Below, one piece after another: positions 32,250 to 36,363 of a stretch of DNA of 64,000 nt (position 1 is the first letter of the stretch; each line of letters opens with the position of its first letter). The position numbers and the translations under genes are program-made. Where the stretch lies: NCBI GenBank assembly GCA_003216715.1, contig QCIK01000001.1:62001-126000 (forward strand), read 5' to 3'. The notes beneath the pieces were generated by a model. That model was not told the DNA's origin, did no database searches, and worked only from the letters and a program-made list of their open reading frames with translations. The DNA comes from Prochlorococcus sp. AG-402-L09 (GTDB lineage: Bacteria; Cyanobacteriota; Cyanobacteriia; PCC-6307; Cyanobiaceae).

Positions 32250-33395
32250 ATGGTTGGTGTTGTGGGTGGAGGTCAGCTTGCAATGCTTCTTGTTGAAGCT
32301 GGAAAAAAAAGAAATATTGATGTTGTCGTTCAGACGACAGCTAAAACGGATCCTGCTGCTAAAAAAACTCAGCAGATGATTTTGCATGATCCTACAAATG
32401 TAGGTGGTACAAAACTTCTTGCCGAAAAGTCCAGTGTTATTACTTTTGAGAATGAGTGGGTTGATATTCCAAGTTTACTGTCGCTACAAAATAATGGAGT
32501 TTCTTTTGTTCCAAGACTTCAATCTATAAGACCTTTGATTAATAAAATAACTCAAAGAGAGTTATTAAATAGGCTTGATATTCCCTGCCCTAAATGGTTG
32601 CCTGTCCCTCTAGAAAAATCATCAGAAATCGATCTTTCTTTTGATTGGGGATTCCCATTGATGGCAAAAGCTGCCACAGGTGGATATGACGGGAAAGGGA
32701 CAAAAATTATTAAAAATTCAAAAGAACTTGAACAATTTCTTGAAGTTGAGAGAGATGAACAATGGATGCTAGAGAAATGGATTTCTTTTGATAAAGAATT
32801 ATCTATTGTTGCAAGTCGGGATTCAAAAGGTATAGTTCGCAGCTTACCTATCGTAGAGACTTACCAATCTAATCAAGTATGTGACTGGGTCCTTGCTCCA
32901 GCTGACATTAATTATGACGTTGATTTAATGGTGAAAAATATCCTATCTTCTTTGCTTACTGAGTTGGATTATGTTGGAGTAATTGCTATTGAATTTTTCT
33001 ATGGGTCTGAAGGATTACTTGTAAATGAAATAGCTCCAAGAACTCATAACTCAGGTCATTTCTCTATAGATGCATGTAGTAGCAGTCAGTTTGATCAGCA
33101 AATTTGTATCACATCTGGTATTGATGTTCCTATGCCTGAAATGCTTGTTAATGGGGCTTTAATGGCAAATTTGCTTGGCTTAGAAATCAATTATCCAATT
33201 TCACTTACTCAGAGGTTGAATCGTTTAAGGGATATTCCTGGCTTGAAGATTCATTGGTATGAAAAAGAAGAAGAAAAAAAAGGAAGGAAGCTTGGTCACG
33301 TTACTTACCTTTTGAAAAATACAGATGCTTTGTCTAGAAAAAAAGAAGCATTAGATGTGTTGAAAACTATACGTTCAATTTGGCCTGCCTCTTGA
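32250..33395 (+). CDS. purK: N5-carboxyaminoimidazole ribonucleotide synthase
   Basis: 381 residues with the ATP-grasp layout: GVVGGGQLAMLLVEAGKKR at the N-terminus, then FPLMAKAATGGYDGKGT, and the metal site VGVIAIEFFYGSEGLLVNEIAPRTHNSGHFSIDAC. It uses ATP and bicarbonate to carboxylate AIR in purine synthesis. The ATG at 32250 starts right at the conserved fold; the 283-base gap upstream is AT-rich without another gene. The putative 6S RNA lies about 45 bases downstream. Confidence 0.95.
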   Translation: MVGVVGGGQLAMLLVEAGKKRNIDVVVQTTAKTDPAAKKTQQMILHDPTNVGGTKLLAEKSSVITFENEWVDIPSLLSLQNNGVSFVPRLQSIRPLINKITQRELLNRLDIPCPKWLPVPLEKSSEIDLSFDWGFPLMAKAATGGYDGKGTKIIKNSKELEQFLEVERDEQWMLEKWISFDKELSIVASRDSKGIVRSLPIVETYQSNQVCDWVLAPADINYDVDLMVKNILSSLLTELDYVGVIAIEFFYGSEGLLVNEIAPRTHNSGHFSIDACSSSQFDQQICITSGIDVPMPEMLVNGALMANLLGLEINYPISLTQRLNRLRDIPGLKIHWYEKEEEKKGRKLGHVTYLLKNTDALSRKKEALDVLKTIRSIWPAS

Positions 33396-33441
33396 TGGTA
33401 TTTTGTTTAGATTGTACAAGTACTACTTTGTTGGTAAAGGC

Positions 33442-33632
33442 CTTTTCAAGTGCTCTGATCTGACTCTCTTTCGATATGGGGAGGCTGTCGTGAAAGTAAC
33501 GTATACCAGCTTTGCTCTGGAAACGAAGCTTCACTTTGAATCCCCCTCTGGTTCTACCAGGTCGATGCTTCTTGGGCCTTACGGCAAAGCGGTACTAACT
33601 CTTTAAGTCATTGCTCTCACTGGCTTGAAAAG
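33442..33632 (+). ncRNA. ssrS: Putative 6S RNA (ssrS/Yfr7), boundaries approximate
   Basis: The GC content jumps above the flanks, and the region folds as one long rod. CTTTTCAAG (33442-33450) pairs perfectly with CTTGAAAAG (33624-33632), TGACT (33461-33465) with AGTCA (33606-33610), and AGCTTTG (33508-33514) with CGAAGCT (33524-33530) as a terminal hairpin, with unpaired stretches between. A 191-base rod with an open centre directly 3' of purK is what I recall for cyanobacterial 6S RNA, which binds RNA polymerase. Identity rests on fold and position, not on a database match. A small overlapping reading frame is not considered coding. Confidence 0.65.
33563..33595 (+). repeat. Direct repeat copy A inside the ncRNA
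   Basis: 33 bases starting CGATGCTTCTTGGGCCTTAC recur at 36223-36255 with 30 of 33 identical and no gap. Matching continues a little on the left (ACCAGGT against ACTAGG). A further AT-rich match is TAACTGAAATAAAATTTA at 33698-33715 against 36263-36279. This copy lies within the paired part of the RNA and holds a GCC-TTAC-GGC hairpin. Confidence 0.8.
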
Positions 33633-33791
33633 TGATAATAATCCCTATTTTTGCTCCGGTCCTCCTACCAAGAGGTCTACCTTTGGCCTTGCCAAATTAA
33701 CTGAAATAAAATTTATATCCCTAAGGCATTGCTGGAATTGCATTCGGATAGATTTTATCTGAAACATTTTGGACTTATGGAATCATCACGA

Positions 33792-36113
33792 TTACTCTTC
33801 TCTTGAGCTTTTAACAGCTTCTTTAAAGAATTTATAGTACTCTTTATATATTTCATTATCATTGAACAAATATTTTTCTGCTTTTTGCTTTAACTCTTTC
33901 TTTGTTGAATCTAATAATATTTTATCTTTAGAATATAATTTGCACCAATTTATATAATCCTCTGGAGATTTTGCTATCGGTGGATTCTCTATCTTCATTT
34001 GTTTATAGCCTGCAGAGACAATTCTTACTTTTTGATTGTGAGGATAGGTAATAAATGGGATTCCATATGCCATCGCTTCATAAAAAGTGACGCCACCACC
34101 AAAGTAAAAAGGATCTAACATTATATCGCAGCTTCTTGTTATGTGGAGGAAATCATCTGTTCCCATCCGATCAAGAAAAATTGATCTTTCTATCAACAAA
34201 TTATTCTTTTTTCTCCATCGATCTTGGATTAATTTGAATTTATAGTTGCTTTTATCTGTTATTAGAACTAAATAGGCTTTCTTGATGTTTAATAATATTG
34301 ATTCAAGTATCTCGTCATAACTTGGATGAAGTTTGACTAATGACTGAATTAAACCAATATAAAAATTACTTGGTGAATTTATTATATTTTTCAGTGTAAC
34401 CTTGCTCTCATTTATTTTAGGAGCAGCAAAATTGAAAGGTAATCTTTTAAATCTTATCAAGGTTTCTGTGTAGTCTAAATCGCACTTGCGAGGTTCTATT
34501 CCATGAGTAATATAATAATCAATATTTCTAATACCCGATGTAGATCCATGTCCCAAACCAGTAACTTGCACTAATGCTAATCTTGATAAAGCCAGAATAT
34601 ATGAAAAGCTATTCATACCAATATCTGGATAAAACATTACATCAAGTTGGTTTGAAAGTATTTCTTTTGCTGCCATTTGTGGGCAATTAGGTAAATTAAT
34701 TACTTTTTTAAAAGAGTCATTTATTTCTTTTATAGTTGAATGATTTTTTTCGTCTGGAATGATATATATTGTTATATCAATATCAGTTTCTGATAAATCT
34801 TTCAAGACATTGATGAAACACTTACCAACACTATGATTTGCTCTAAGAAACATTGAGCAAACACCTATTTTTAAATTTTTTCTTTTACTTGAGTCAACCA
34901 AATATTTATCATGAGAGAATCCATTCAATATCATCCCCTTTGATTTTGAGATTGCGTTAGAAAAATCCTCAAGAATCTCTCTATCATCTAGCCTATTTTG
35001 GTAGGCTAGATAGAAAATACTTGAAGTGAAACTCTTCGGATATTCATAAATCATATTGTCCTTATTTTTTAAATTATTAATTTCTTTTTTAAATTGACTT
35101 CTTTCATTGTCAATTTGTGAATTATTCTCCACAATTGGAGATAATATTAGATTCGAGTTTATAAAATAAAAAATATTATTGGGAGCATGCCTTGATGCAG
35201 ATGATAAGTATTTATATGCATCTGAAAATCTTCCAAGATCGATCAATATGCTTCCCAGATTAGAATATGCTTCAGCAAAATCAGGTTTAAGTTCAATAGC
35301 TTTGCACAGAGATGCTTCTGCTTCTTTTGATTCGCCCATATCATTCAATATGTTTCCCAGATTGGAATGAGCTTCTGCATAATTAGGTTTAAGTTCAATT
35401 GCTTTGCGAATAGCTAATTCTGCTTCTTGAAATTTGCCAATATTTCTCAATATGTTTCCCAGATTTAAATGAGCATCTGCGAGACTAGGTTTAAGTTCAA
35501 TTGCTTTGCGAATCGCTAATTCTGCTTCTTGAAATTTGCCAAGGTCATTCAATATGACTCCAAGATTACAATAAGCTTTTACGAATTCAGGTTTCAATTT
35601 AATTGCTTTACGCAGTGATATTTGAGCTTCTTTTAATTTACCAAGTTTCTTTAAAGTATTTCCCAAGTTGTAATGGGCTTCTATGTAATTAGGATTAAAT
35701 TCAATTGCTTTACGTATTAATATTTCGGCTCCTTGTGATTCACCAAGATCATTCAATGTGTTTCCCAAATTATAATGTGCTATTGCAGAATTAGGATGAA
35801 GTTCAATAGCTTTACGTTGCAATAATTCAGCTTCTTTTAATTTACCAAGACCTTTTAAGATTGTTCCAAAATTAGAAAAAACTCTAGGATCAGAAAAACC
35901 TTGATCAATAAAATATTGGTAATACTTTGCTGCTTCTTGTATGTTTCCTTGTGAATGAAACTTAAATGCTTGATTAATTATTTGTTCTTTAGAAGGAGTA
36001 TTAGTAGTAATAGCGATGTTTTTTTTGATTTCTCCTAAAGTAAATGGAACTGAGAATGTTTTTACCTCAGTAATTTTCTGCTTTCCTTCTACTTCTTTAC
36101 TAGATCTATCCAT
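33792..36113 (-). CDS. TPR protein with OGT/SPINDLY-like glycosyltransferase C-terminus
   Basis: 773 residues. From about 45 to 330 there are eight or nine 34-residue TPR units of the form xAEAHSNLGNILxDxGxxxEAExxxxKAIELKPx. The C-terminal half (about 410-760) has LKIGVCSMFLRANHSVGKCF, DVMFYPDIGMNSFSYILALSRLALVQVTGLGHGSTSGI and DIMLDPFYFGGGVTFYEAMAYGIPFITYPH, like GT41 O-GlcNAc transferases. It may glycosylate proteins or surface glycans. Two neighbouring TPR units are almost identical in DNA (offset 102 bases), which implies recent unit duplication. The gene lies between two copies of part of the ncRNA. Confidence 0.83.
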   Translation of the reverse strand: MDRSSKEVEGKQKITEVKTFSVPFTLGEIKKNIAITTNTPSKEQIINQAFKFHSQGNIQEAAKYYQYFIDQGFSDPRVFSNFGTILKGLGKLKEAELLQRKAIELHPNSAIAHYNLGNTLNDLGESQGAEILIRKAIEFNPNYIEAHYNLGNTLKKLGKLKEAQISLRKAIKLKPEFVKAYCNLGVILNDLGKFQEAELAIRKAIELKPSLADAHLNLGNILRNIGKFQEAELAIRKAIELKPNYAEAHSNLGNILNDMGESKEAEASLCKAIELKPDFAEAYSNLGSILIDLGRFSDAYKYLSSASRHAPNNIFYFINSNLILSPIVENNSQIDNERSQFKKEINNLKNKDNMIYEYPKSFTSSIFYLAYQNRLDDREILEDFSNAISKSKGMILNGFSHDKYLVDSSKRKNLKIGVCSMFLRANHSVGKCFINVLKDLSETDIDITIYIIPDEKNHSTIKEINDSFKKVINLPNCPQMAAKEILSNQLDVMFYPDIGMNSFSYILALSRLALVQVTGLGHGSTSGIRNIDYYITHGIEPRKCDLDYTETLIRFKRLPFNFAAPKINESKVTLKNIINSPSNFYIGLIQSLVKLHPSYDEILESILLNIKKAYLVLITDKSNYKFKLIQDRWRKKNNLLIERSIFLDRMGTDDFLHITRSCDIMLDPFYFGGGVTFYEAMAYGIPFITYPHNQKVRIVSAGYKQMKIENPPIAKSPEDYINWCKLYSKDKILLDSTKKELKQKAEKYLFNDNEIYKEYYKFFKEAVKSSREE

Positions 36114-36222
36114 TTTCTCTATTCTCTCTTTCGGTTCTTGCGATAATACTATTTTTACCCAGAGAATTCAGTCATAAAAATTTAAGGATGCTGATGTGAC
36201 ACTGCCACTAGCCACTACTAGG

Positions 36223-36255
36223 CGATGCTTCTTGATCCTTACGGCAAAGTGGTAC
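36223..36255 (+). repeat. Direct repeat copy B (degenerate ncRNA fragment)
   Basis: The second copy of the segment at 33563-33595, 30 of 33 bases identical at a fixed offset of 2660. GG to AT and C to T changes weaken the GCC-TTAC-GGC hairpin, so this copy looks non-functional. It lies 110 bases before the start codon of the TPR gene, outside it, in a stretch with no other gene. Confidence 0.8.
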
Positions 36256-36363
36256 TTAGTTCTAACTGAATAAAATTTACTAAAATACTAGTTTTCTATT
36301 TTTTATTTCTATATTTTTTGTTTATCTAGATCGTTGATTTGTGGACTTTATAAACGACTGGAA

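Follow-up and report, generated by a model that had tools for sequence, protein, structure and literature searches.

A repeated 6S RNA 3' end marks the probable remnant of an integrative element in Prochlorococcus

The window, i.e. the whole stretch of 64,000 nucleotides of Prochlorococcus sp. AG-402-L09 that was analysed, contains an intact 6S RNA gene and, behind an insert, repeats the 3' end of this gene (copy B). With a probability of about 0.88, this second copy is the displaced 3' end of 6S, left by a tyrosine-recombinase element that integrated in the 3' part of the 6S gene and later decayed. The observations behind this reading are the repeat itself, the empty sites of related genomes, a left end homologous to that of an element still equipped with its integrase, relatives of this integrase at 6S in other genomes and a conserved att architecture. 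Coordinates are given in Table 1.

Table 1 Features of the 6S locus in the window
Feature	Position	Strand	Basis
purK, conserved left neighbour of 6S, host anchor	32250..33395	+	Pfam ATP-grasp and PurK_C; synteny in congeners
6S RNA gene, target, intact at the left end of the insert	33417..33599	+	RF00013, 86.8 bits, full model
Putative crossover core CTGG-TTCTA-CCAG-GTCGA, imperfect palindrome inside 6S, putative attB/attL	33548..33565	+	
Element left end	33600..33767	+	72.6% identity to G006 element left end, E 2e-21
Degenerate iterons related to GGTCCTACCA, putative integrase arm-binding sites	33658..33697	+	Aligned with the intact iterons of G006 and G005
TPR/glycosyltransferase cassette, cargo	33768..36158	-	blastn, 2400 nt at 92.3% to an unlinked G005 locus
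773-aa TPR repeat protein, weak GT41/OGT-like C-terminal match	33792..36113	-	Pfam TPR families; Glyco_transf_41, E 1e-6
Element right-end remnant, without iterons or integrase	36159..36214	+	Between cassette end and distal 6S copy
Displaced 6S 3' end, attR-type (copy B)	36215..36256	+	88% identity to 6S positions 138-180; 31/34 core
p116, conserved right neighbour, host anchor, coiled-coil-like repeat protein of 116 aa	36364..36714	-	tblastn synteny in the genus

The 6S gene covers the Rfam model RF00013 from end to end (model positions 1-187 of 187), and its score lies well above the gathering score of 46.4. The sequence-only reading had called this RNA a putative 6S and had noticed that 30 of 33 of its bases (33563-33595) recur at 36223-36255. 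Rfam confirms the identity, and the recurrence was borne out as a repeat of 31 identical bases in 34 (33563-33596 and 36223-36256). By blastn, copy B extends to the limits given in Table 1. In the whole 1.6-Mb genome, copy B (E 7e-8) was the sole second copy of any strength, and the next-best match concerned the sequence downstream of 6S. The best unrelated matches within the window reached 19/34 on the forward and 20/34 on the reverse strand, and the maximum in a chance control of 100 first-order Markov windows was 22/34. A direct repeat of the 3' end of the target gene is hence found at both ends of the insert. The target gene itself is intact after insertion, as 6S exceeds the gathering score over the full model and folds with its proximal 3' end.

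A second, AT-rich match had been noticed at each end of the insert (about 33697-33716 and 36262-36280). The matching letters exist, but they were rejected as part of the duplication because the left match aligns with the left end of the element in G006, another genome of the genus, and the right one is host DNA by p116.

It is very improbable that copy B has nothing to do with an insertion, whether as a dispersed repeat or as a second RNA with a function of its own. Pairing of the distal 3' end with the 5' strand of 6S is still possible (-58.1 vs -58.8 kcal/mol), which would suit a second RNA; since refolding leaves it pairable, non-functionality of copy B is not claimed on structural grounds. 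However, copy B lacks the 5' half of 6S, and the 6S 3' pattern is single in the genomes of the genus; the exceptions are the window genome and G006, which both carry an insert.

A 6S match was obtained in 37 of the 41 genomes of the genus. The gene order aroB(-) purK(+) 6S(+) p116(-) p74(-) is conserved. Spacing was counted at the 33 sites where 6S and p116 lie on one contig. Twenty-seven of these are empty, with one 6S 3' end at a distance of 88-119 nt (median 112) from p116; congeners lacking both copy B and the TPR gene, which the sequence-only reading had named as support for an insertion, are present accordingly. The spacing is longer at six sites, with 337, 487, 792, 2768 (window), 3825 (G005) and 7386 nt (G006). 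In the window, copy B is located 111 nt from p116, like the 6S end in empty sites, so that excision between both copies would give back the empty layout. In G035 the element left end follows 6S on a contig that stops short of p116.

Two observations on the neighbourhood of 6S may be added. Protein p116 consists mostly of 11-residue repeats (33-bp repeats in the DNA), occurs genus-wide and has no Pfam family. The two 6S copies of G034 were discounted because this MAG is probably misassembled there: purK and 6S are repeated at a contig end, 26 kb apart, and the downstream context jumps from one copy to the other (L039 502-1830 and L040 6533-7882).

At the same site, genome G006 carries a 7.2-kb insert, bounded at its far end by 42 nt that repeat the 6S 3' end with 98% identity to the 6S of the window. 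About 90 bp inside this distal copy lies the gene for a tyrosine recombinase of 422 aa, with matches to Pfam Phage_integrase (E 1e-7) and to the integrase family phrog_1 (E 1e-36) and with HDLRR...RHK...Y in its C-terminus. Other genes in the insert include M28 and M48 peptidases and an ACP-domain/SHOCT protein. Iterons of the sequence GGTCCTACCA, at a spacing of 12-13 bp, stand directly after 6S and again beside the integrase. A copy B in a strain without the TPR gene had been named beforehand as evidence against an insertion. It was encountered once, in G006; as the distal copy of that genome flanks an insert with an intact tyrosine recombinase, the case favours the insertion model instead.

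The first 168 nt past the 6S of the window are homologous to the left end of the G006 element (33601-33767: 72.6% identity, E 2e-21). By alignment, the left end of the window and of G006 is also present in G005, G033, G035 and G040; G032 has a degenerate insert. Site-specific insertion at an RNA gene other than a tRNA gene, the central proposal of the sequence-only reading, is supported by this homology together with the empty sites and the integrase relatives at 6S. The alternative that local duplication or illegitimate recombination made the 6S 3' fragment, the cassette having entered independently and no site-specific element being involved, is strongly disfavoured. It would account for the window being devoid of an integrase and for the presence of the TPR cassette elsewhere in G005, and the MAG G034 illustrates that purK-6S may appear doubled, even if probably by misassembly. 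Yet it leaves two facts unexplained: the sequence that adjoins 6S shares homology with the left end of an element that carries an integrase and occupies this very site, and repeat and integrase architecture recur at 6S in other genera.

The two copies of G006 differ in their distance from the 3' ends of empty sites, with a mean of 1.5 mismatches for the distal versus 3.4 for the proximal, element-side copy, and the CCATACGGCA variant of the proximal end is common to the proximal ends of G033, G035 and G040. Although one empty site (G014) also has CCATACGG, this pattern fits an element that would donate a new 3' end to 6S. In the window the distal copy is the more diverged one (4.0 mean mismatches to empty sites vs 1.6 for the proximal copy), and donor and original are therefore indistinguishable by sequence there.

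In the proposed mechanism, an integrative element would recombine within the 3' part of 6S by means of its tyrosine recombinase. The element-borne attP, furnished with its own 6S 3' end, would replace the 3' end of the host; 6S would stay intact because the element brought the replacement, and the former 3' end of the host would be pushed to the far side (attR). In the window lineage, the integrated element would then have lost the integrase and most of its right end, leaving the left end with degenerate iterons, the cassette and the displaced 6S fragment. A tyrosine recombinase is absent from the window insert, and the integrase that adjoins attR in G006 is missing here. The sole PF00589 match in the window genome is a recombinase of 387 aa that is also present in nearly all congeners searched; this genome, which is 92.5% complete, yielded no integrase that might serve in trans. 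The sequence-only reading had left a choice between an old or decayed insertion and an integrase supplied in trans: a decayed remnant devoid of integrase agrees with the data, whereas a trans-acting candidate did not emerge.

A search of 400 genomes of the family yielded 14 substantial relatives of the G006 integrase. Nine integrases share a contig with 6S (G006, G147, G338, G294, G191, G229, G063, G130 and G199), and all nine are located 3' of 6S and point toward it; the one in G063 is about 39 kb away, with transposase-like repeats in between. Remnants at 6S in G061, G241, G346 and G374 show the same order and orientation as the integrase-bearing loci. Two drafts in which no 6S was found (G181 and G389) contain the integrase, iterons and a 6S-like fragment. 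Integrases away from 6S were those of G139 and G203 and a second copy in G191. The integrase clade is monophyletic with a support of 1.0 versus other picocyanobacterial tyrosine recombinases, and its members or remnants occur at 6S in several genera of marine picocyanobacteria, where iterons and a displaced 3' end of 6S accompany them. We infer that the G006-type integrase family catalyses the integration into 6S. The G006 integrase had no match in the collections of genome contigs and viral contigs, nor had the exact 6S 3' end among the viral contigs, and comparison of the integrase with phage records gave distant matches only (22-28%).

Matches of 60 residues to the N-terminus of the integrase were obtained in most congeners and rejected; they belong to a sulfite reductase, not to a recombinase. 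The 60 N-terminal residues of this reductase (L125 3439-5583 in the window genome) are ~41% identical to the N-terminal region of the 6S integrase and lie outside the reductase domains recognised by Pfam. Their counterpart in the integrase is DUF6538-like and putatively arm-binding.

The displaced copies match 6S from CAGGTCG or just before in every attR read; in the fragments upstream of the integrase, CAGGTCG comes first and the 6S 3' sequence follows. Upstream of CAGGTCG most displaced fragments share TGG-N5-6-CAGG, and intact 6S has CTGG-TTCTT-CCAG, an imperfect palindrome. By likeness to the stem-loop cores in tRNA genes, CTGG..CCAG may represent the crossover core, and strand exchange would be expected within CTGGTTNTTCCAGGTCGA. 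Iterons flank the att sites, and their sequences vary by element (GGTCCTACCA, GTCCCAACCA, TGCAGGACCA, GGTTCCAACA, GGTACCCACA, GTCAGACCCA and TTGACTGACA). They are candidate arm sites of the integrase, and joint divergence of arm sites and integrase would produce such differences.

Between both 6S copies, the ORF of 773 aa is the only gene of substantial size, in line with the earlier description of a TPR/glycosyltransferase gene standing alone there; its DNA holds six 102-bp repeats. The copy of the cassette in G005 is unlinked to 6S and occupies a different chromosomal site (L124 8114-12646), where the gene of a different tyrosine recombinase (426 aa) is about 0.7 kb away and a small AlpA-like gene is nearby. 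Because this cassette, 92% identical, sits unlinked beside another recombinase, the TPR gene is regarded as mobile cargo and not as a defining part of the element, possibly acquired secondarily. The cassette may have travelled with the 6S element. A competing explanation accepts the remnant of a 6S element but has the cassette arrive later, either by homologous recombination among TPR/glycosyltransferase genes or with another element; we consider this the lesser, though a substantial, possibility. Homology with the left end of G006 breaks off right at the start of the cassette (33767/33768), TPR genes of such type are abundant, and the G005 cassette, found away from 6S beside a different tyrosine recombinase and the AlpA-like gene, implies that the cassette could have joined the window insert after integration. 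On the other hand, the 6S insert of G061 also contains a TPR gene, so such genes can be cargo of 6S elements, and no second att-like repeat pair was seen around the window cassette.

Cargo of other kinds was observed in related inserts. The 6S insert of G338 carries phnC/phnE/phnE and a phosphate/phosphite/phosphonate-binding protein; these phn genes (L173 4192-7607), in a genome of another genus, tie phosphorus acquisition to the 6S island site. The 6S inserts of G294 and G191 encode T7-type RNA polymerases (phrog_414, E 8e-152). This polymerase group is present in 36 of the 400 family genomes and is only about 26-28% identical to the RNAPs of lytic cyanophages. Within integrative elements of picocyanobacterial chromosomes, genes for T7/podovirus-type single-subunit RNAPs are located at L174 6593-9037 (G294), L227 5352-7778 (G191) and G003:C1:763440-765881, where the gene adjoins another tyrosine recombinase.

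It is textbook knowledge that elements integrate into tRNA and tmRNA genes. Genomic islands placed in such genes by tyrosine integrases are those of the Islander/TIGER type (PMC4383910, PMC12424338). Like these islands, the 6S elements split an RNA gene near its 3' end, restore it and leave a displaced 3' fragment at the far end; a tyrosine integrase lies by one end (G006 and relatives), and relatives have empty sites. Unlike in these islands, the target is the 6S RNA gene. According to PMC12424338, Islander examines tRNA and tmRNA genes only and TIGER sorts targets into tRNA/tmRNA, coding and intergenic, a scheme in which a 6S target would presumably not show as a class of its own.

The tycheposons of Prochlorococcus (Hackl et al. 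2023, Cell), as far as they are recounted in PMC10872708, target seven tRNA genes. They likewise occur in marine picocyanobacteria, possess a tyrosine recombinase and carry cargo that includes nutrient genes, and by that account the 6S target sets the present elements apart from them. A tRNA gene as site was not encountered here: no tRNA was found near the window insert or, with ARAGORN, next to the integrase in the related 6S-family loci scanned. The picocyanobacterial integrase family cluster158946, near tRNA-Phe/tRNA-Cys (PMC10187409), is similar in being a tyrosine integrase family common to Prochlorococcus and Synechococcus, with variable islands at a fixed RNA gene. Its targets, however, are two tRNAs, and it is by target that the two families are set apart here. 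The Synechococcus elements of G294 and G191, with a tyrosine integrase near a T7-like RNAP gene, resemble the int-RNAP module of the cyanopodovirus P-SSP7, but differ from it by the low identity of their RNAPs to those of cyanophages. The elements of this kind also differ from a cyanopodovirus in that they measure about 10-16 kb and that none of the few proteins scanned was recognised as a capsid protein. No open-access paper was found that describes 6S as a target of integration; the main tycheposon paper lay outside this search and may contain an earlier mention.

The 6S-targeting element belongs to the RNA-gene-targeting integrative elements, with 6S as an added target. Tentatively, the 6S elements may form an undescribed clade across marine picocyanobacteria that uses 6S as attachment site and replaces the 6S 3' strand. 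As some of them carry a phage-type single-subunit RNAP, these members could perhaps be phage satellites or prophage derivatives that evade control of the host polymerase, and others might move phosphonate/phosphite transporter genes.

6S RNA is a regulator of the housekeeping RNA polymerase. With a fixed 6S attachment site used by one integrase clade in Prochlorococcus and Synechococcus, a regulatory RNA gene joins the list of targets, and 6S becomes a new locus at which islands can be predicted, in phototrophs that rank among the most abundant on Earth. As the target frequently lacks annotation and would be counted as intergenic, islands of this kind readily escape notice. Since their cargo includes a phosphonate/phosphite-type ABC transporter and phage-type RNAPs, the site bears on the movement of nutrient and phage-derived genes. 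The finding also raises the question whether each integration swaps the 3' strand of 6S, and so may alter 6S function.
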